From: Lysobacter panacisoli
GTDB taxonomy: Bacteria > Pseudomonadota > Gammaproteobacteria > Xanthomonadales > Xanthomonadaceae
Direction of reading: 5' to 3'
DNA length: 64,000 nt
Assembly (NCBI RefSeq): GCF_009765165.1
Contig: NZ_VLNU01000001.1
Location: 806,001 to 870,000 of the forward strand
The translations under genes and the position numbers were made by a program. Below are positions 11,207-28,647 of this stretch, one piece after another (the first letter of the stretch is position 1; every line of letters begins with the position of its first letter). The notes below the pieces were generated by a model. That model made no database searches. It saw only the letters and a list, made by a program, of their open reading frames with translations, and was not told the DNA's origin.

Positions 11207-11248
11207 ACGTTAGGCTTCGCCAACCTGACCGGCCTTGACCTACGTCAA
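11207..11248 (-). promoter_or_regulatory. FNR-box promoter of nirK
   Basis: TTGAC-ctac-GTCAA at 11235-11248 is a perfect inverted repeat close to the FNR consensus. TAACGT at 11212-11207 fits a -10 element. The start site is predicted near 11200, 41.5 bp from the box centre, with a leader of about 36 bases. Confidence 0.8.
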
Positions 11249-13538: not shown

Positions 13539-13580
13539 TTGACGTGAGTCAAGGGCAACCGCGCCGGCGCTGCCTAGCCT
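13539..13580 (+). promoter_or_regulatory. FNR-box promoter of the CCGGC-ubiD-ubiU-ubiV unit
   Basis: TTGAC-gtga-GTCAA at 13539-13552 is a perfect inverted repeat. TAGCCT at 13575-13580 is a good -10. The predicted start is 13587, exactly 41.5 bp from the box centre, with a leader of about 47 bases. Confidence 0.8.
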
Positions 13581-13633: not shown

Positions 13634-13876
13634 ATGATCTCCGCGACGAATCCGAACCTCCAGACCGAACGCGAACTCCTGCTCACCCGCGCCCTGCGCA
13701 ACGCCGATCCGGAAGCGGAGGTCAGCATCGACCACGAAACCGGCCAGCTCAGCATTTCCACCGTGCTCGGCGAGGGTGAGGTGATGGAACTCCTGGCAGG
13801 CCTGGGCGTCGATGCGGCACCGATTCCCGCCGCACATGGCGAAGGCGGCAATTGCTGCGGCGGTTGCGGCGGTTGA
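13634..13876 (+). CDS. Small protein with C-terminal CCGGCGG metal-site-like tail (paralogue 2)
   Basis: An 80-residue protein, first gene after an FNR-type promoter. I do not recognise the family. It shares LRxxDPxAxV (residues 26-34), GQLSI (41-45) and the CCGGCGG end (74-80) with the 77-residue product at 4696-4929, with only a few gaps over the last 60 residues. The tail is preceded by a flexible Pro/Ala/His/Gly stretch. AGGA is found upstream of the ATG. The UbiD-like gene starts 20 bases downstream. Its placement at the head of an oxygen-independent ubiquinone operon and its cysteines suggest metal or Fe-S related work, but this is inference. Confidence 0.75.
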
Positions 13877-13895
13877 TTCGCACCCGTCCGCCACG

Positions 13896-15389
13896 ATGCG
13901 TTTCCACGACCTGCGCCAGTTCCTCGGCTGCCTGTCCGACCACGGTCAGCTGCTGGAGATCGACGCCCCCATCGATCCCGAGCTGGAAAGCACCGCACTG
14001 AGCCTGCGCGCCTTGCGTGCACAGGGGCCTGCGCTGCTGATGCACAACGCCAGCGGCTCGACGCATCCGCTGCTGGGCAATCTGTTCGGCCATCGCTCGC
14101 GGATCGAACTCGCGCTGGGCGAGCGGCCGCTGTCGTCGCTGCGCGAACTCGGCGAACTCCTCGCTGCGATCAAGGAGCCGCGCTGGCCTTCCAGCGTGCG
14201 CGACGCGTTGTCGAGCTGGCCAGAGCTGGCGCAGCTTGCGCACGTCGCGCCGCGTGCGTGCGATGACGCGGCATTCAACGAAGAAGTACTCGAAGGCGAA
14301 GCCGTCGACCTGCGTCGCCTGCCGATCCAGCGCTGCTGGCCGGAAGACATCGACCGCCTTATCACCTTCGGTCTGGTGATCACGCGCGGCACGCGCCAGC
14401 CGCGCCAGAACGTGGCGATCTATCGCCAGCAGCCCATCGGTCGCAACCGCGTGATCATGCGCTGGCTCGCGCATCGCGGTGGCGCACAGGATTACGCGAG
14501 CTGGCAGGCGATGCATCCGGATCGTCCGTTCCCCGTGCTGGTCGCGATTGGTGCGGACCCGGCGACGATGCTCGCGGCCGTCGCGCCGGTCCCGGACACG
14601 TTGTCGGAGTACGAGTTCGCCGGCCTGCTGCGTGGTGCGCGTTCGCGCGTATGGCACAGCGCGCTGACTGGTCTCGATGCGCCGGCCGGCGCGGAGATCG
14701 TGCTCGAAGGCTTCATCCATCCGGGCGACACCGCGCTGGAAGGACCATTCGGCGACCACACCGGCTACTACAACGCCCAGGCGCATTTCCCGGTGCTCAC
14801 CGTCGAGCGCATGCGCCTGCGCCGCAATGCGATCTACCACGGCAGCTACATGGGCCGCGCGCCGTTCGACGAGCCATCCGTGCTGTCGATGGCGCTCAAC
14901 GACCTGTTCGTGCCGATCCTGCGCAAGGTGTTCCCGGAGATCGAGGACTTCTACCTGCCACCGGAAGCGTGCTCGTACCGCGTCGCCATCGTCAGCATCC
15001 GCAAGCAGTACGCGGGCCATGCGCGGCGCGTGATGCTCGGCGTGTGGTCGTACCTGCGCCAGTTCACGTACACCAAGTTCGTGATCGTCACCGACGAGGA
15101 CATCAACGTGCGCGACTGGAGCGAGGTGATCTGGGCGGTGTCCACGCGCGTGGATCCGGCGCGCGACAGCGTGCTGATCGAGAACACGCCGATCGACTAC
15201 CTCGACTTCGCCAGTCCGACCTCGGGGCTGGGTTCCAAGCTCGGCCTGGATGCCACGCGCAAGTGGGCCGGCGAGAGCGACCGCGAATGGGGTCGTCCGA
15301 TCACCCTCGATCCGCAAGTGGAACGACGCGTGGATGCGATCTGGGAGCAGGTGTGCCGTGCGCGCGAGGAGCCGCCGCCCGGAATCTGA
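13896..15389 (+). CDS. UbiD-family decarboxylase
   Basis: A 497-residue member of the prenylated-FMN-dependent UbiD family, whose archetype removes the carboxyl group of 3-polyprenyl-4-hydroxybenzoate in ubiquinone synthesis. The conserved [11 protein letters not shown] segment (about residues 283-293) is present. I start at ATG 13896 because the homologous N-terminus ([11 protein letters not shown]) begins there; the earlier ATG at 13812 lies inside the CCGGC gene. The gene is directly followed by ubiU and ubiV, so it is probably a UbiD dedicated to the O2-independent pathway. UbiX, which makes the cofactor, is not in the window. Confidence 0.88.
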
Positions 15390-15429
15390 CGCTGGACGGT
15401 TCGGCCCTTCCCTTCCACGGATTCCTTCC

Positions 15430-16428
15430 ATGCAACTGGTCTGTCCCGCCGGCAATCTGCCGGCCCTTCGCACCGCCATCGACGCGGGTGCGGATGCGGT
15501 CTATCTCGGCTTCCGCGACCAGACGAACGCGCGCGCGTTCCCTGGCCTGAACTTCGACGACGGCGAGATCCGCCAGGGCATCGCCTATGCGCATGCGCGC
15601 GGCCGCCAGGTGTATGTCGCCCTGAACACCTATCCCGACAGCGCGCGCCTGTCGCACTGGCAACGCGCAGTAGATCAAGCCGCGGAGCTGGGCGTGGACG
15701 CGATCATCGCCGCCGAGATGGGCGTGCTCGACTATGCGTGCCGCACCCATCCGTCGCTGCCGCGCCATCTGTCGGTGCAGGGATCGGCGACGACAGCCCC
15801 GGCATTGCGCTATGCGCACGAGCGCTTCGGCATCGCCCGCGCGGTGCTGCCGCGCGTGCTCTCAGTGCAGCAGGTCGAACGACTGTGCGCGAACGCACCG
15901 GTACCGCTGGAAGTGTTCGCGTTCGGCAGCCTGTGCATCATGGTCGAGGGTCGCTGCCAGCTTTCGAGCTACGTCACCGGCGCGTCGCCGAACCGCCACG
16001 GCGTGTGCTCGCCGGCGCGCTTCGTGCGCTGGGAAGAGCACGACGACGGCCGCCGCAGCGTGCGACTGAACGACGTGCTGATCGACCGTTTCGACCCGGC
16101 CGAACCTGCCGCCTATCCAACCGTCTGCAAGGGACGCTTCGGCGTCGCCGGCGAAGTCTTCCACGCGCTGGAAGAACCCACCAGCCTCAACACGCTCGAC
16201 CTTCTGCCTCGACTGGCGCAGGCAGGCGTGGCGGCGTTGAAGATCGAGGGCCGCCAGCGTGGCGCGGCCTACGTCGACGCGGTGACGCGTACCTGGCGCG
16301 CGGCGATCGACCGGCATCGTGTCGCGCCGGAAGCATGGCGTGCGCAACCCGCCTGGCACACGACGCTGGCCGCGCATGCGGAAGGCCACCAGACCACCCT
16401 CGGCCCCTACCACCGCGAGTGGCACTGA
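15430..16428 (+). CDS. ubiU: UbiU, O2-independent ubiquinone hydroxylation protein (U32 family)
   Basis: A 332-residue U32 peptidase-family protein. In E. coli UbiU and UbiV form a 4Fe-4S complex needed for ring hydroxylation in ubiquinone synthesis without O2. The four cluster cysteines are present at C169, C176, C193 and C233, matching E. coli 169/176/193/232. The start MQLVCPAGN is the family start. ubiV begins one base after the stop. Upstream are the UbiD-like gene and an FNR-type promoter, so anaerobic expression is expected. Confidence 0.95.
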   Translation: MQLVCPAGNLPALRTAIDAGADAVYLGFRDQTNARAFPGLNFDDGEIRQGIAYAHARGRQVYVALNTYPDSARLSHWQRAVDQAAELGVDAIIAAEMGVLDYACRTHPSLPRHLSVQGSATTAPALRYAHERFGIARAVLPRVLSVQQVERLCANAPVPLEVFAFGSLCIMVEGRCQLSSYVTGASPNRHGVCSPARFVRWEEHDDGRRSVRLNDVLIDRFDPAEPAAYPTVCKGRFGVAGEVFHALEEPTSLNTLDLLPRLAQAGVAALKIEGRQRGAAYVDAVTRTWRAAIDRHRVAPEAWRAQPAWHTTLAAHAEGHQTTLGPYHREWH

Positions 16429-16429
16429 C

Positions 16430-17311
16430 ATGCAGTTGAGCCTCGGACCCCTGCAGTACTTCTGGCCGCGCGAACGCACGCTGGCCTTCTACCGCGAAGC
16501 GGCGGCGTGGCCGCTGCATTCGATCTACCTCGGCGAAACCGTGTGCAGCAAGCGCCGCGAGCTGCGCACGCGCGACTGGATCGCGCTGGCGGAGGAATTG
16601 TCCACGAGCGGCAAGCAGGTCGTGCTGTCGTCGCTGGCGCTGATCGAGGCCGAATCCGAACTGAGCGCATTGCAGCGTCTGGTCGATGACGGTCGCTTCT
16701 GGATCGAGGCCAACGACCTGTCGGCGGTGCAACTGTGCCGCGAACGCCGCGTGCCCTTCGTCGCCGGCCCCAGCCTCAACGTCTACAACCACGACGCGCT
16801 GGCGATGCTGATCGAGGACGGCCTGCGGCGCTGGGTGCCGGGCGTCGAGCAGGGCCACGCGCTGATCGGCGAACTGCTGTCGGCGCTGGAGGCTCGCGGC
16901 ACCGCGCGTCCCGAGGTCGAGGTGATCGCGTGGGGTCGGCTGCCGCTCTCCTATTCGGCGCGCTGCTTCACCGCGCGCGCGGCGGACGTGAGCAAGGACC
17001 AGTGCGGCTTCCGTTGCATCGACCATCCCGACGGCCTGCCCCTGACCACGCGCGATGGCCGACCGTTCCTGCGCATCAACGGCATCCAGGTGCAAGGCGA
17101 GGAGACCATCGACCTGCTGCCGGAGCTGCCACGTCTGCGCGAACTCGGCGTCGACCTACTCCGGTTGTATCCGCAGGCGGAAGGCATGGATGGGATCGTA
17201 GAGCATGCGGCACGGGCGCTCGCGGCGGACACGCCCGTGGATGCACTCGGCGCACGCAACGGCTACTGGCACGGCGAACCCGGCATGAGCGGGATCGCAC
17301 GCGACGCGTGA
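16430..17311 (+). CDS. ubiV: UbiV, O2-independent ubiquinone hydroxylation protein (U32 family)
   Basis: A 293-residue partner of UbiU. Its 4Fe-4S cysteines are C39, C179, C192 and C196, matching the E. coli spacing (39/180/193/197). The opening MQLSLGPLQYFWPR is typical of UbiV. It starts one base after the ubiU stop, so the two are coupled. Its stop lies two bases from the nadB stop on the opposite strand, so the plus-strand ubiD-ubiU-ubiV unit and the minus-strand ubiT-nadA-nadB unit converge here. Confidence 0.95.
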   Translation: MQLSLGPLQYFWPRERTLAFYREAAAWPLHSIYLGETVCSKRRELRTRDWIALAEELSTSGKQVVLSSLALIEAESELSALQRLVDDGRFWIEANDLSAVQLCRERRVPFVAGPSLNVYNHDALAMLIEDGLRRWVPGVEQGHALIGELLSALEARGTARPEVEVIAWGRLPLSYSARCFTARAADVSKDQCGFRCIDHPDGLPLTTRDGRPFLRINGIQVQGEETIDLLPELPRLRELGVDLLRLYPQAEGMDGIVEHAARALAADTPVDALGARNGYWHGEPGMSGIARDA

Positions 17312-19757: not shown

Positions 19758-20600
19758 TCAGGCGTGTGCGGTGGCGTGGACGGCGCGCGCCGCGCGCATG
19801 CCGCGTGCGGTGCGATGCAGGACGATGCGCAGCCCCAGCGGCAGCGATTCCCACGGCAGGCGATCGAGCAGGTTGCGTACCGTGAGGCCGAGCTCGACGT
19901 CGCCGGTGAGCATCAGCCGGCGCTGGAAGAACAGCGTGTCCGCGTCCTCGAGCCGGCTCGCCAGCAGCATCAGGTCGGTGGCGGTGCCGCGCACGACGGC
20001 CTCGGCCGCGCCACGACTGCGGCGCACGCGACCTGTGTCGACTTCCAGCACCCACGACAAGCCCAGGTCGGTCACCTCGATGCCGATGCGGCGGTGCTCG
20101 ACGGTCTGCAGCCAGTCGCCCTGCATGCTCGCGAGCAGCGCCTTCGACAGGACGCGTTCGGCCGCGCCGTCGAGCAGCGCCGACGGAACCAGCGCGAGCG
20201 GCGCACGCCATCGGCGCGGCGGCGGGAGCAGGCGCAACAGGCGCGTGGTGCGACTCGCATCGCCCTCGCCCTGCGTCCACGTCGATGCCGGTTCCGCACG
20301 CGCACGCGACGCCTGCTGCTGGCAGGCATCGCCGATCAGCGTGTCGACGAGACGGTGCGCGGATGCCACCGGGATGCGCAGGCGCGTCGCCATGCGTTCG
20401 GCACGCTCATGGACCTGCGCTTCGCGATCGTGGTCGTGGACAGGGGCGTCCATCGCGTTCTTCGCCGGTCCTGCGGCGGACACGAGGCGGCGTCGCGCCG
20501 CGAGCAGCACGATCATCGCGTCGTCGACGCGATCGATGCCGAAACGCGCGCCGGACAGGACGCGACGGGCCAGGCGGGGTCGGGTGTTCTGCGGTTGCAT
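19758..20600 (-). CDS. ubiT: Chorismate mutase (AroQ) - UbiT (SCP2) fusion
   Basis: A 280-residue two-domain protein. Residues 18-96 are an AroQ-type chorismate mutase. Against E. coli P-protein (R11, R28, K39, D48, R51, E52, Q88) every catalytic residue is present in register: R19, R36, K47, D56, R59, E60, Q96. Residues about 120-270 are a UbiT SCP2 lipid-binding domain (LMLLASRLEDADTLFFQRRL, then LTGDVELGLTVRN), the accessory factor of O2-independent ubiquinone synthesis. Start is ATG 20600; ATG 20612 in the same frame is possible. An FNR-type promoter lies upstream, overlapping the end of the 12-TM gene. The fusion puts a chorismate-consuming enzyme on a ubiquinone pathway protein. Confidence 0.88.
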   Translation of the reverse strand: MQPQNTRPRLARRVLSGARFGIDRVDDAMIVLLAARRRLVSAAGPAKNAMDAPVHDHDREAQVHERAERMATRLRIPVASAHRLVDTLIGDACQQQASRARAEPASTWTQGEGDASRTTRLLRLLPPPRRWRAPLALVPSALLDGAAERVLSKALLASMQGDWLQTVEHRRIGIEVTDLGLSWVLEVDTGRVRRSRGAAEAVVRGTATDLMLLASRLEDADTLFFQRRLMLTGDVELGLTVRNLLDRLPWESLPLGLRIVLHRTARGMRAARAVHATAHA

Positions 20601-20632
20601 GCGGTTTCCCATCGTCGATGGTCGGGCGCCAG

Positions 20633-20674
20633 ATGCTAGGTGCGCGCCGCCGCGCTGCCATTGACCTGCGTCAA
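20633..20674 (-). promoter_or_regulatory. FNR-box promoter of ubiT-nadA-nadB
   Basis: TTGAC-ctgc-GTCAA at 20661-20674, with -10 TAGCAT at 20638-20633 on the minus strand. The predicted start is 20626, 41.5 bp from the box centre. The box overlaps the last codons and stop (20673-20671) of the upstream gene. Confidence 0.8.
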
Positions 20675-21924
20675 TCCGGGGCCAGCTCGGCGGCATGGCG
20701 CCGCATCCGGCGATGGCAATGGCACAGCGTGATGAGCGTCGCGGCGTGCGCGAGGGCCAGCGCCACACCAGCGACCGCCTGTCCTTCCTGCGTCCATACG
20801 GCGGTCGCGAGCACCGCCGATGCGACCACGTGCGCGCCGAACACGCGCCGCTTCGCGCGTTCTGGCATCAACCGGCCCACGCCGGGGACCTGGCGGCCGC
20901 GCGGCACGTCGCGGCGCAGCTGGATCCATGCCAGGAACGCGGCGATCTCCAGCAGCATTGCGGCCACCAGCATCGGCAGCCCGATGCCGAGCGCGAGCAC
21001 GCCGATGCGCACGGCGCGCAGGGGGTCGTCCTGCGGCCACCACAACAACAGCGCCGCCGCGACAGCGAGCACGCTGGCGCCGGTCGCCCACCCCGCGATC
21101 AGCGCGTGATTGCGTCGATGGCGCGCGCGCAGCTGCGTCCACAGCGACGCGAGCGCGAACACCCACACCGCTGCCGCCACGACCATCGCCAGCCATGCGT
21201 CGTCGCCCTGCATGCGTGCGATTCCGCCGGCCACCAGCCCGACGAGGACGCTCGTCAGCCATGCCGCCACGCCGCGCGGCGGCAGCGCACGCGCGCCCTG
21301 CAGCATCGGCATCGTCACCGAGCCGACGGCGACGATCAGCGCGAGCGTCCAGCCAACGGTACCGAACGCGGCGTGCGTGTCGACCACGCGATCGAGCGCG
21401 ATGCGAAGTTCACCGCCGAGGGTGAGCACCGCGGCCACACCGAGTACGGCCGTGGCGACCAGCCCGGCCAGCGCGATGCCGATCGCAGCACGCAGCCATC
21501 GCGTACCGGCGCCCTTCGCCAGCGCGCGTGCGGCGAGGATCGCGAACACCAGCAGCGACCCTGCCACCAGGCATCCGGCGAGATGCAGCGCGACCATGTT
21601 CAGGCCCGACATCCCGTACGCGAACAGCATCAACCCGACGTTGAACGCGGCATGCAGCAACGGGAACAGGCGGCGATGATCGAACGGGCTCATCACCGCG
21701 ACCGGCAGGAACTGCGTAAGCGCGCCCAGCATGGCGTTGCCCAGCACGCCAAGTGCGACGAGATGCACCAGCACCACCGTCGGAGGCGACCAGCGCGACG
21801 CGAGTGCGGTCTCGCCATGCCATGCCAGCCACGCGCCGGCGACCACGCCCCACGCCGGGGCGCTCGCGAGGAATCGCATCGGCACGCTGGGCGACGGCGC
21901 CTGCGTGAGTGCAAGGCCGCTCAA
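20671..21924 (-). CDS. 12-TM integral membrane protein, distantly NnrS/heme-copper-oxidase-like
   Basis: A 417-residue, almost wholly hydrophobic protein with about 12 predicted membrane helices. I recognise no named family. Helices carry conserved-looking histidines (VLVHLVALGVLGNAMLGALTQFLPV; VALHLAG; DTHAAFGTVGW) in a style reminiscent of NnrS and oxidase subunit I, so heme or copper binding is possible. The C-terminus has a CHCHRRMRRH cluster. Its ATG overlaps the DUF2249 stop, and it ends the run nnrS, sirB2-like, 46-aa gene, DUF2249, this gene. It probably serves NO handling or low-oxygen respiration, by context only. Confidence 0.7.
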   Translation of the reverse strand: MSGLALTQAPSPSVPMRFLASAPAWGVVAGAWLAWHGETALASRWSPPTVVLVHLVALGVLGNAMLGALTQFLPVAVMSPFDHRRLFPLLHAAFNVGLMLFAYGMSGLNMVALHLAGCLVAGSLLVFAILAARALAKGAGTRWLRAAIGIALAGLVATAVLGVAAVLTLGGELRIALDRVVDTHAAFGTVGWTLALIVAVGSVTMPMLQGARALPPRGVAAWLTSVLVGLVAGGIARMQGDDAWLAMVVAAAVWVFALASLWTQLRARHRRNHALIAGWATGASVLAVAAALLLWWPQDDPLRAVRIGVLALGIGLPMLVAAMLLEIAAFLAWIQLRRDVPRGRQVPGVGRLMPERAKRRVFGAHVVASAVLATAVWTQEGQAVAGVALALAHAATLITLCHCHRRMRRHAAELAPD

Positions 21925-22765: not shown

Positions 22766-23995
22766 TCAACCGGGCTTTCCGTCGGCGCGCGGGGTCAGGT
22801 AGATCCAGCCCAGGCGCGACACCCACGGCAGGAACGCAACCAGCCAGCCGATCGCCGCGACGGCATGCCATGCGTAGGCGTCGGGTGCGATCTCGGCCGC
22901 GATACGAAGCACGGCTACGATCTGCACGGCGACGAACGCGAACCACGCGATCGGGTACATCGCCAGCGGACGGCCGGAGTGACCCTGCGTCACACGCGTC
23001 ACCATCGCGATCAGCAGGCTGCCGAAGAATCCGATGAACAAGGCATGCGCGGGCGCGCGACCCAGCTGGAAGCCGCCGTCCATCGCATAGATCGCACTCT
23101 GCAGCGAATACAGCGCGAAGGTGATCGGCAGCCATGCCGTGCCGATGAACAGCACCGCCAGGATCCCCGGCATGCGCTTGCGCGGCCACCAGTGCCACAG
23201 CGCGAGCAGCGACAGCGCAAGCAGGGGAACGTCGACCAGCCACAGCCATGCATACGCGTGCGACAGCTCCAGCAGCAGGTGCGCGAACAGCAGCGCCCAC
23301 GCGGCACCGAGCCACCACATCGGTCGCCACGCGCGATAGCCCGGCACCACGTTGGCGGCGAAGAACGGGAACATGCGGTGCGCGACGGTCAGGTACACCG
23401 GCAGCAGCAGGCCGACCGTGCCGAGCTTGATGCTCAGCATCGCCAGCACCGGCGATCCGCCCAGCACGAATGCGAGGAACGCGAGCAGCCCGGCCCAGCC
23501 CAGCACCAGCGCAAGGAAGCACGAACGCGCGTGCCAGGTCGTGCCTTCTTCCTGCAGCAGCAGGCGACCGAGGAAGAACAGACCCGTCGTCCAGCCCGCC
23601 GCGGCCATCAGCACGCCGATGAGGACGCCGACTTCCAGTCCGCAGGCGCCGAGCAGGAGCGCAAGCTGTCCGCCCATCAGGCCGGCGCCTATCGGCACGT
23701 AGTGCCAGCGTTCCAGCGAAGGTAGGCCCATCCAGCGCGGGAAGACGGTGAGCAGGAATCCGAAGATGAAACTCGGCAGCACCAGGTACTGCATGATGAA
23801 GGCGTGCAGCCAGCCGGCCGGCACGCTCACCTGGGGCGCGGACAGCAGTCCCGGCCAGCGCGTGGACACCAGCCACACCGCCCACCACAGCATCGCCAGC
23901 AACACGTTTCCCGCGCCGATGAAGAACATCAGCCGGTGCGGGGCCTGCATGAGGTGGCGCGCGGAAGCGCCGGGGGGTTCGGTGGCCTGGAGCAT
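22766..23995 (-). CDS. nnrS: NnrS family heme-copper membrane protein
   Basis: A 409-residue, 12-helix membrane protein. Family marks include FGFLLTVFPRWMGLP (about 63-77), LTVAHRMFPFF (about 190) and HALFIGFFGSLLIAMVTRVTQGHSG (about 290-314) with conserved histidines. NnrS proteins are linked to tolerance of nitric oxide in denitrifiers and pathogens. The ATG at 23995 is the first base of the mRNA predicted from the FNR-type promoter, so the message may be leaderless; a downstream ATG at 23950 has a GGAAG upstream and is an alternative. It heads a five-gene operon. Confidence 0.9.
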   Translation of the reverse strand: MLQATEPPGASARHLMQAPHRLMFFIGAGNVLLAMLWWAVWLVSTRWPGLLSAPQVSVPAGWLHAFIMQYLVLPSFIFGFLLTVFPRWMGLPSLERWHYVPIGAGLMGGQLALLLGACGLEVGVLIGVLMAAAGWTTGLFFLGRLLLQEEGTTWHARSCFLALVLGWAGLLAFLAFVLGGSPVLAMLSIKLGTVGLLLPVYLTVAHRMFPFFAANVVPGYRAWRPMWWLGAAWALLFAHLLLELSHAYAWLWLVDVPLLALSLLALWHWWPRKRMPGILAVLFIGTAWLPITFALYSLQSAIYAMDGGFQLGRAPAHALFIGFFGSLLIAMVTRVTQGHSGRPLAMYPIAWFAFVAVQIVAVLRIAAEIAPDAYAWHAVAAIGWLVAFLPWVSRLGWIYLTPRADGKPG

Positions 23996-24001
23996 GCGGG
24001 C

Positions 24002-24043
24002 AGTGTCGTCCTGGCCCTGTGTAGGCGCCTTGACACATGTCAC
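24002..24043 (-). promoter_or_regulatory. FNR-box promoter of nnrS
   Basis: TTGAC-acat-GTCAC at 24030-24043 (plus strand) has one mismatch from symmetry. GACACT at 24007-24002 fits the -10. The predicted start is 23995, the A of the nnrS ATG. Confidence 0.6.
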
Positions 24044-24052
24044 CCGCGCCAA

Positions 24053-26477: not shown

Positions 26478-27233
26478 TTAGTGGCGCAGCACGACCAGCG
26501 CGAGCGATTCCAGGCGCTGCATGTCGAGGATCTCGACGTCGCGCAGCTTGATCGACACCAGGCCCTCGCGCTCGAAGCGACGCAGCACGCGGCTGACCGT
26601 CTCCGGCGCCTGGCGCAGGTAGTTGGCGATGTCGGTGCGCGACATCGTGAGCTGGAAACGGCGCGGCGAGAAACCGCGCGCAGCGAGTCGTCGCGACAGG
26701 CCGATCAGGAACGCCGCCATGCGCTGGTCGGCGGAATGATCGCCCGCGAACAGCGAGGCGACACCGATGTCGCGGCTCATCAGCTTGAACAGGTGGCGCT
26801 GCAGGTTCGGCAGGCGCGTGGCCAGCATCGCGATGCGCGGGAACGAGAAGCGGCACAGCATCACCGTGTCGAGCGCCACCGCGTTGCACGGATAGCGGTC
26901 GTCGTGGATCGCGTTGAGCCCGATCACCTCGCCCGGCAGGTGGAAACCCAGCACCTGTTCGTGGCCGTTGGGATCGATCATGTAGGTCTTGACGGTACCG
27001 GCACGCACCGCGGCGATGGCACTGAACTCATCGCCTTCGCGGAACACGTGCTCGCCCGGGCGCAGTGGGCCGACGTGCTCGACCAGCACGTGCAGGTCCA
27101 TCAGCGCGCTCTTGTCCATGCCCTCGGACAGGCAGGCCTGCGAGAACGCGCAGGTGGAACAGAACGTCAGCGAGTCGCCGTCGTCGGCGATGATCGAAGG
27201 GTTCGTACGTGGAAAGACAACGCCGGAACTCAT
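26478..27233 (-). CDS. fnr: FNR-type oxygen-sensing transcription regulator 1
   Basis: A 251-residue CRP/FNR-family activator. C25, C28, C34 and C127 match E. coli FNR C20/C23/C29/C122 with one constant offset, so it should bind an oxygen-labile 4Fe-4S cluster. The recognition helix carries E-T-V-S-R, the E..SR set that reads TTGAT half-sites. It starts 14 bases after hemN1 and is probably cotranscribed with it, under the FNR-type box upstream of hemN1, making a self-reinforcing loop. Its targets are likely the twelve FNR-type boxes of this window. Confidence 0.92.
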   Translation of the reverse strand: MSSGVVFPRTNPSIIADDGDSLTFCSTCAFSQACLSEGMDKSALMDLHVLVEHVGPLRPGEHVFREGDEFSAIAAVRAGTVKTYMIDPNGHEQVLGFHLPGEVIGLNAIHDDRYPCNAVALDTVMLCRFSFPRIAMLATRLPNLQRHLFKLMSRDIGVASLFAGDHSADQRMAAFLIGLSRRLAARGFSPRRFQLTMSRTDIANYLRQAPETVSRVLRRFEREGLVSIKLRDVEILDMQRLESLALVVLRH

Positions 27234-27246
27234 GCCGCGGTTCGCA

Positions 27247-28647
27247 TCAGACGGTTCGTGAGAACTGTACCGGCGTCGTCCCCGCTTGCGGGGCGAGGTA
27301 GCGATCGAAACACGCCGCAAGCACGCGCAGGAGCAATCGCCCTCGCGAGGTGGCACGGATCGTTCGCGCGGACAGTTCCACCAGTCCGTCCTCCTGCAAC
27401 GCCTTCAATTGCTGCAAAGACTGCGCGAAATAGTCGCAGAAGTCCATGACATGCCGACGCTCGGTCATGGCGATGTCGATCTCGCCGTGGCACATGAGCT
27501 GCTGGATCACGTCCGCCCGGATCACGTCGTCCGAGTCCATCTGCATGCCGCGCCACACCGGCAGGCGCCCTTCGTCGATGGCGCGTTCCCAGCTCGGCAG
27601 ATCACGCGGATTCTGGCTGAAAGTATTGCCGACATGGCTGATTGCGCTCACGCCGAGGCCGACCAGGTCGCTGTCGGCGCAGGTCGTGTAGCCCATGAAG
27701 TTGCGGTGCAGGTCGCCGCGCGCCTGCGCGCGGGCGAGGTCGTCCTCCGGCAAGGCGAAGTGATCCATGCCGATGTAGACATAGCCGGCCTCGCCCAGGC
27801 GCTCGATCGCCCGCTGCAGCAGCCCCAGCTTGACCTGTGGCGTGGGCAGGTCCTCGGCGCGGATCTGCTGCTGCGCGCGGAACAGGTTCGGCAGGTGCGC
27901 GTAGCTGTAGATCGCCAGCCGGTCCGGACGCGCATCGAGGGTGATGTCGAGCGTGCGGTCGAAACCTTCCAGCGTCTGCAGCGGCAGACCGTAGATCAGG
28001 TCGACATTGACCGAGCGCAGGCCGTAGGTACGGCAGGCATCGATGATGTCCAGCGTCTGCTCGACGCTTTGCACGCGGTTCACCGCACGCTGCACGGTCG
28101 GGTCGAAATCCTGCACGCCCAGGCTGGCGCGGTCGAAACCGGCCTGCGCCAGCGCGCGCACGTAGTCGCGGTCGATGAAGCGCGGGTCGAGCTCGATCGA
28201 GCACTCGCGCTTGCCATCGCGTGCCGGCGGGAAATGGCGATGGATCACGTCCACCGCTTCGGCAAGCTGGTCGGCGGAGAGGAAGTTCGGCGTACCGCCG
28301 CCGAAGTGCAGCTGCACCAGTTCGCGATCGCGATCGAACAGCGTCGAGGCCATCGCGATCTCGCGATAGAGACGGTTCAGGTACACCTCGCCGCGCGTGG
28401 TGTCGCGCGTGATGATTCGGTTGCAGCCGCAGTAGAAGCACGGGCTCATGCAGAACGGCACGTGCACGTACATCGACAGTGGGCGCGGGATCGGATCGCC
28501 GTTGGTCGCCGCCGCGGCTTCGCGCAGTTGCGCCTCGCCGAAGCCGGCGGCGAACTGCGGCGCGGTCGGATACGAGGTGTAGCGCGGCCCGGGCCGGTCG
28601 TATCGGCCGAGCAGATCCGGGTCGAAAAGGATGGGCGAGATGGGCAT
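27247..28647 (-). CDS. hemN: Oxygen-independent coproporphyrinogen III oxidase (copy 1)
   Basis: A 466-residue radical-SAM enzyme that decarboxylates coproporphyrinogen III in heme synthesis without O2. The cluster cysteines are C66-x3-C70-x2-C73, with the adjacent C75 typical of HemN. RYDRPGPRYTSYPTAPQF is the family N-terminus; its position supports the ATG at 28647. No ribosome site precedes that ATG, and the FNR-type promoter predicts transcription starting one base before it. A close paralogue is at 36738-38129. fnr1 follows in the same unit. Confidence 0.95.
   Translation of the reverse strand: MPISPILFDPDLLGRYDRPGPRYTSYPTAPQFAAGFGEAQLREAAAATNGDPIPRPLSMYVHVPFCMSPCFYCGCNRIITRDTTRGEVYLNRLYREIAMASTLFDRDRELVQLHFGGGTPNFLSADQLAEAVDVIHRHFPPARDGKRECSIELDPRFIDRDYVRALAQAGFDRASLGVQDFDPTVQRAVNRVQSVEQTLDIIDACRTYGLRSVNVDLIYGLPLQTLEGFDRTLDITLDARPDRLAIYSYAHLPNLFRAQQQIRAEDLPTPQVKLGLLQRAIERLGEAGYVYIGMDHFALPEDDLARAQARGDLHRNFMGYTTCADSDLVGLGVSAISHVGNTFSQNPRDLPSWERAIDEGRLPVWRGMQMDSDDVIRADVIQQLMCHGEIDIAMTERRHVMDFCDYFAQSLQQLKALQEDGLVELSARTIRATSRGRLLLRVLAACFDRYLAPQAGTTPVQFSRTV

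Follow-up and report, generated by a model that had tools for sequence, protein, structure and literature searches.

Why a chorismate mutase (CM) should be joined to UbiT, a protein that the literature describes as required for anaerobic ubiquinone synthesis and proposes to bind the pathway intermediates, is the question raised by one gene in the window, the 64,000-nucleotide stretch of Lysobacter panacisoli DNA analysed here. The gene is a single open frame composed of the parts listed below; an in-frame ATG at 20615 is a possible alternative start.

19758..20600, minus strand: CM-UbiT fusion gene, 280 aa, ATG at 20600, stop at 19758
20313..20546, minus strand: AroQ CM domain, aa 19-96, with R19, R36, K47, D56, R59, E60 and Q96
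20238..20312, minus strand: linker, aa 97-121
19815..20237, minus strand: UbiT (SCP2) part, aa 122-262

Pfam placed CM_2 at residues 21-96 (45.4 bits, cut-off 27; E 9.3e-12) and SCP2 at residues 162-246 (53.1 bits, cut-off 21.3). The NCBIfam UbiT equivalog NF047962 scored 116.7 bits (cut-off 46.9) over residues 136-251, and ubiU and ubiV, both above the cut-offs of their own equivalogs, lie in the same locus. These matches confirm the UbiT identity that the earlier note had given to the remainder of the protein, and the CM_2 score removes the failed AroQ profile search that it had named as a possible refutation. The exact register that it had described with E. coli CM was also recovered, as residues 17-96 align without gaps on residues 9-88 of 1ecm, the N-domain of E. 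coli PheA. R19, R36, K47, D56, R59, E60 and Q96 thus correspond to R11, R28, K39, D48, R51, E52 and Q88, which form the polar active site of EcCM (PMC5526877). Identity to E. coli CM is 25 of 78 residues. The claim that all catalytic residues are intact holds for these seven polar ones and fails at S84, which is Ala92 in the window protein. The substitution is not decisive, because the B. subtilis CM_2 has Gly at this position (PMC5526877); among the 100 distinct fused CM domains described below, 97 carry A or G there. Many NCBIfam CM models matched the window protein, every listed one under its own cut-off, so that no named CM equivalog is reached and the domain appears to represent a divergent AroQ branch. 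It shares with the PheA N-domain the profile family, the ungapped register and the seven polar residues, and differs in the Ala at S84 and in its partner, which is prephenate dehydratase in PheA and a lipid carrier in CM-UbiT.

The active site is conserved across the fused proteins. The 132 fused loci (repeats included) yielded 100 distinct CM domains, and 93 of these have all seven polar residues. By EcCM numbering, R11, R28, R51 and E52 were found in all 100 domains, K39 in 99, Q88 in 97 and D48 in 96; the seven deviants comprise four D48N and three changes at Q88, one of them together with K39R. Two deviants (G100 and G073) occur among 30 loci of the window's family, and both of these genomes carry another CM_2. 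The active-site columns rank within the top 11 of the 84 CM columns, for which the median conservation is 0.57.

The same collection disposes of a frameshift, two separate genes or an assembly artefact as the source of the fusion, which the earlier note had kept in view, since the frame is unbroken in all 132 loci with their 100 distinct CM domains. A sequence error is also incompatible with the recurrence of CM-UbiT in 30 of 31 UbiT-bearing genomes of the family and 32 of 68 of the order. A survey of UbiT homologues, as the earlier note had proposed, showed that the fusion is spread widely within a single clade. UbiT scored over its cut-off in 31 of 119 family genomes, and all 30 loci fetched were fused; the remaining genome (G104) has an unfused UbiT. 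For the order, UbiT was over the cut-off in 68 of 250 genomes, 32 fused and 36 not, the fusions being distributed over four families (f1, 16/16; f2, 11/12; f184, 4/4; f183, 1/1) with 0/35 in the others. The class sample held 99 UbiT-positive genomes; three of them belong to the family of the window and all three are fused, and none of the 90 examined among the other 96 is. The best 80 loci from 281 named relatives, a ranking that favours fused loci and is biased accordingly, all had the CM domain in the same frame and included Lysobacter, Dyella, Rhodanobacter, Frateuria, Pseudoxanthomonas, Arenimonas, Thermomonas, Stenotrophomonas, Luteimonas and records named Xanthomonas. In a tree of the UbiT part most fused proteins fell together, with the unfused UbiT of G104 and G644 nested among them, and these two have likely lost the CM domain. 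The tree has 142 columns, is weakly resolved and contains three poorly filled rows (L048, L050 and L053), so its five changes between fused and unfused states are a rough count.

What might a mutase do on a ubiquinone protein? The earlier note had found the pairing unexpected, viewing the mutase as a diversion of chorismate from 4-hydroxybenzoate, the ubiquinone precursor (PMC10470549). More likely, CM yields what is reported to be a co-substrate. UbiU/UbiV were shown to draw their oxygen from a donor that is not O2, and prephenate was named as a candidate for it (mBio 2023, PMC10470549); a 2024 review (PMC11574389, citing PNAS 2024, doi 10.1073/pnas.2321242121) states that the hydroxyl oxygen of anaerobic ubiquinone comes from prephenate, a recent result whose chemistry it treats as open. 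TrhP, a U32 relative of UbiU, requires prephenate as well (PMC6599085). A CM on UbiT therefore fits the pathway because CM makes prephenate, the reported oxygen donor of UbiU/UbiV. We regard it as probable, judging from sequence, that the CM domain is a catalyst serving O2-independent ubiquinone synthesis. In the mechanism that we propose, an Fnr-type regulator would switch on ubiU-ubiV and CM-UbiT at low O2. The N-terminal AroQ domain, probably a dimer like E. coli CM, would convert chorismate to prephenate, and the C-terminal SCP2/UbiT domain would carry the polyprenyl-benzene intermediates. UbiU/UbiV, encoded nearby, would then take the oxygen of prephenate and hydroxylate the intermediate held on UbiT. 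The fusion would supply prephenate at the place and time of demand, free of competition from PheA and TyrA. We infer here catalysis by the CM domain, the feeding of UbiU/UbiV and the value of local delivery.

The surroundings of the window gene agree with a role in this pathway and contain the following features.

13539..13552, plus strand: perfect FNR-type box preceding ubiD-ubiU-ubiV
13812..15389, plus strand: ubiD-family decarboxylase gene with UbiD domains, directly before ubiU
15430..16428, plus strand: ubiU, 332 aa; NF047963 530.9 bits, cut-off 440
16430..17311, plus strand: ubiV, 293 aa; NF047965 350.6 bits, cut-off 275
20661..20674, minus strand: perfect FNR/DNR-type palindrome, TTGACCTGCGTCAA on the plus strand, preceding CM-UbiT

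The genes nadB and nadA stand between ubiD-ubiU-ubiV (13812-17311) and CM-UbiT. The ubiD-family gene scored 463 bits with TIGR00148 (cut-off 244.85) and 702 bits with PRK10922, under the cut-off of 788, and the window UbiU reached 149.6 bits with the TrhP model. The centre of the palindrome at 20661-20674 lies about 67 nt before the ATG at 20600 and 52 nt before that at 20615. A TTGAY-N4-RTCAA box this close to the start marks CM-UbiT as a putative FNR-regulated gene. FNR-type boxes before ubiT and ubiU are general, being reported for 1362 of 1566 ubiTUV sets (PMC11707229). E. coli UbiT (YhbT) resembles the window protein in its SCP2 domain, its UbiT equivalog, its position near ubiU-ubiV and its FNR-type box (PMC6747719, PMC11707229); it differs in its length of 174 aa, which is mostly SCP2 as described in PMC6747719, and in lacking a CM domain there.

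A separate line of evidence comes from ubiT genes that are not fused. We examined their surroundings in 187 genomes, of which the class sample gave 90, the order sample 36 and a phylum draw 61. As the contig permitted, 1.5 kb was taken on each side of ubiT for loci supplied by the genome search and up to 4 kb for loci that were fetched. In five of the 187 (L150, L162, L168, L190 and L212), all among the 90 class genomes, a stand-alone CM gene confirmed by Pfam directly adjoins ubiT. The five belong to five different families outside the fusion clade; four of the CM genes are divergent from ubiT and one follows it on the same strand. With an assumed 2800 genes and 1.1 CM per genome about 0.15 such cases would be expected (P ~5e-7). 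An FNR-type box lies between CM and ubiT or before the ubiT-CM pair in all five, perfect in four and with a mismatch in one; such a box with at most one mismatch is common at unfused ubiT anyway (70/122). The five CMs keep R11, R28, K39, R51 and E52, with D, E, A, S and S at D48, in an alignment that does not cover the Q88 position. Two genomes, G297 and G350, hold one CM_2 each, which by E-value is the one adjoining ubiT. A CM gene next to ubiT is nevertheless not common (5/90 in the class, 0/36 in the order and 0/61 in the phylum genomes). Some of the out-of-class loci may not be true ubiT, because 15 of the 20 that were fetched had no ubiU/ubiV match nearby. At the genome level within the class, CM_2 was found in 92 of 99 UbiT-positive versus 216 of 270 UbiT-negative genomes (p 0.0025, kinship and genome size ignored). 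The seven UbiT-positive genomes in which CM_2 was not found are G424 (99% complete), G428 (94%), G396 (99%; its UbiT match is marginal at 48.7 bits) and four that are under 90% complete. Three fused genomes present CM-containing frames that look TyrA-like by eye (L065:11447-12511, L074:11379-12464 and L070:6807-8180), directly beside ubiU at two loci and beside ubiT at one; CM genes therefore cluster here even more. The fusion and the separate CM-ubiT linkage in five families constitute independent genomic evidence for prephenate supply in the pathway.

Most fusion-bearing genomes of the family, the window's included, carry a second CM_2 and so have a source of prephenate besides the fusion. 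In six family genomes of 99-100% completeness (G003, G055, G076, G083, G107 and G109), CM-UbiT is the sole CM_2, and the fused CM thus appears to be the only AroQ CM of some strains. All six retain the seven polar residues in CM-UbiT, and chorismate synthase was found in all 18 genomes tested, these six among them. Prephenate dehydratase (PheA) was not found in the six, and a PF02153 search found no TyrA in them or in 11 other dehydratase-less genomes. This search detected TyrA in 5 of 8 dehydratase-bearing versus 0 of 17 dehydratase-less genomes (p 0.001), and because it finds TyrA in just 5 of 8, absence of TyrA from the six is likely, not proven. The five detected are supported by the NCBIfam prephenate dehydrogenase model (G000, G081 and G104) or by eye (G036 and G100). 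The PF02153 hits in G003, G021, G045, G066, G076, G083, G105 and G109 were set aside as matching beta-hydroxyacid dehydrogenase models, below cut-offs, and those in G026, G078 and G094 as showing the same other-dehydrogenase motif by eye. Other prephenate consumers were sought in 25 genomes. The U32 profile found one or two proteins in each of 12 UbiT-positive genomes and none in 13 without UbiT, and CmoA was over its cut-off in 0 of 25, with weak matches in 12. All U32 proteins of the six sole-CM genomes sit at the ubi locus, and TrhP, RlhA and CmoA were therefore rejected as prephenate consumers in these six. CM_2 occurs in 31 of 31 UbiT-positive family genomes, and the 11 CM_2-less genomes among the 119 all lack U32 and a UbiT over the cut-off. 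One further genome (G081:C3:57709-58375) has a PheA (CM-dehydratase) spread across three frames and apparently decayed; its CM-UbiT is intact and TyrA is present.

The foremost alternative is that the CM-like domain is a sensor, in which binding of chorismate or prephenate would let flux through the shikimate pathway switch UbiT or the anaerobic Ubi complex. The precedent is the CM-like domain of the DAHP synthases of B. subtilis and Listeria, which like that of CM-UbiT is an N-terminal AroQ domain with the active-site residues kept and yet mainly regulates the first shikimate step by binding chorismate or prephenate (PMC5526877). That all NCBIfam CM models fall below cut-off on the window protein would also suit a sensor. 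However, a profile built from 71 fused proteins (the window and 70 of the 80 named loci) matched the catalytic 1ecm best (5e-13), its other end matching a sterol carrier protein 2, and gave weaker matches to the CM domains of DAHP synthases (3.9e-7 for 2d8d and 1.7e-5 for 5j6f). A sensor also leaves unexplained why, in five families, a separate CM gene adjoins an unfused ubiT, and why there are sole-CM genomes without the usual prephenate users. We therefore consider this reading unlikely.

How the fusion may have arisen is indicated by the linker. In many fused genes the linker contains the peptide D-x-x-Q-G, and the DNA beneath it is an FNR-type box. In a set of 77 distinct fused genes (the window gene and 80 named loci, minus 4 near-duplicates), 42 had a linker box with at most one mismatch (e.g., L127, L079, L088 and L084); the same box was found in the CM part of 1/77 and the UbiT part of 0/77, and shuffled segments gave a mean of 0.24. 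The peptide motif occurs in 44 genes; the position ahead of its Q is occupied by D, G, N, H or R, and the codon there ends in T in 44/44, against a background of 21.8% (kinship ignored). The constraint on the linker thus looks to act at the DNA level, since the third base is invariant while the residue varies. The commonest distances from the centre of the box to an in-frame ATG downstream are 46 nt (26 genes), 31 nt (23) and 34 or 43 nt (13 each); for 68 unfused ubiT genes that have a box, the distance to the first such ATG is 41-45 nt in 18 and 60-69 nt in 21. Upstream sequence of 300 nt was available for 75 genes; among these the box was in the linker only in 31, upstream only in 22, in both places in 11 and in neither in 11, so that linker and upstream boxes tend to exclude each other (p 9e-4, starts assumed and kinship ignored). 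The presence of a box and an ATG inside the linker makes it seem that the CM-ubiT fusion runs through the old promoter of ubiT. The simplest reading is that a CM gene before ubiT grew through this promoter into one frame, and the linker promoter may still work in many lineages and yield UbiT alone under anoxia. The linker box hints at a route by which two genes can fuse across a promoter that is in use. The intragenic box was not found in the window gene, where the best match has 3 mismatches, and the window linker contains zero in-frame ATG or GTG and a single TTG, at codon 122. In the window UbiT is probably made solely as the fusion, because the box precedes the whole gene and the linker is without an ATG.

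Such an origin lends some weight to a second alternative, that a house-keeping or spare CM for Phe/Tyr synthesis was joined to ubiT by chance read-through. The fusion does seem to cross the FNR-type promoter of ubiT itself in 42 of 77 genes, and PheA and TyrA of the window organism could consume the prephenate made by CM-UbiT. Against chance read-through stand the six fusion genomes in which neither dehydratase nor TyrA was found, the separate CM-ubiT adjacency in five families, and the window gene itself, whose box lies ahead of the fusion and whose linker lacks an ATG. We judge it improbable, slightly more so than a sensor. That the AroQ fold makes another chorismate product, such as 4-hydroxybenzoate, as a PchB-like lyase, is highly improbable. 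PchB is an isochorismate-pyruvate lyase and to our knowledge has no equivalent of E52, a residue kept in 100 of 100 fused domains. It does match the fused-protein profile (1.1e-5), but the isochorismate lyase model scores 17.7 on the window protein against a cut-off of 126, and an isochorismate lyase was rejected on this ground. 4-Hydroxybenzoate being a ubiquinone precursor (PMC10470549) adds to the appeal of a lyase; its need both with and without O2 gives no reason for a link to UbiT. A CM domain that merely dimerises or places UbiT, with catalysis irrelevant, would make use of AroQ active sites being built from two monomers (PMC5526877), for which reason the domain would dimerise UbiT, but the active site is among the best conserved columns, which a scaffold would not require, and we give this reading almost no weight. 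Control of chorismate use and binding of another ligand by the mutase fold, both raised earlier, are minor rivals.

Returning to a catalyst of the ubiquinone pathway, we hold a more specific form of it tentatively, as a possibility: CM-UbiT may be a dedicated oxygen-donor module that makes prephenate on the lipid carrier and passes it directly to UbiU/UbiV, and in many relatives the intragenic FNR-type promoter may add UbiT alone. If true, an organic molecule would be synthesised at the complex purely for oxygen delivery, and a single gene would adjust the balance between the donor-making form and the plain carrier to the oxygen level. CM-UbiT also offers a natural single protein for the joint study of donor synthesis, carrier binding and hydroxylation. 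The UbiT-UbiU fusion of Zymomonas mobilis likewise unites two components of this anaerobic pathway (PMC6747719), there carrier and hydroxylase, in CM-UbiT carrier and presumed donor synthesis. TrhP and RlhA are U32 proteins related to UbiU whose RNA hydroxylation needs prephenate (PMC6599085); they differ in acting on RNA, and the U32 profile, run on 25 genomes, finds no additional member. The CM and UbiT parts are known, and their combination and its link to the oxygen donor appear new, a prior mention being possible. A literature search, with preprints, subscription papers, supplements and the PNAS 2024 paper outside its coverage, found no published report of CM-UbiT and, within the same coverage, no mention of chorismate mutase with UbiU/UbiV in papers from 2024 on; the main text of PMC11707229 contains neither 'fused' nor 'fusion'.

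The window as a whole contains six perfect TTGAY-N4-RTCAA boxes versus 0.10 expected; besides the two at the ubi genes, those at 11235, 28683, 36691 and 40228 adjoin a TonB copper receptor gene, a HemN-like gene, hemN and ccoN. Two minus-strand frames after CM-UbiT (20671-21924 and 22766-24052) have the look of membrane proteins and are NnrS-like by eye only; the former had no Pfam or NCBIfam match and the latter no NCBIfam match. A NorB-type nitric oxide reductase gene also lies beyond CM-UbiT, as does a candidate reader of the boxes.

26478..27356, minus strand: Fnr-like regulator gene, candidate reader of the FNR-type boxes; PRK11161 199.9 bits, under the cut-off of 228
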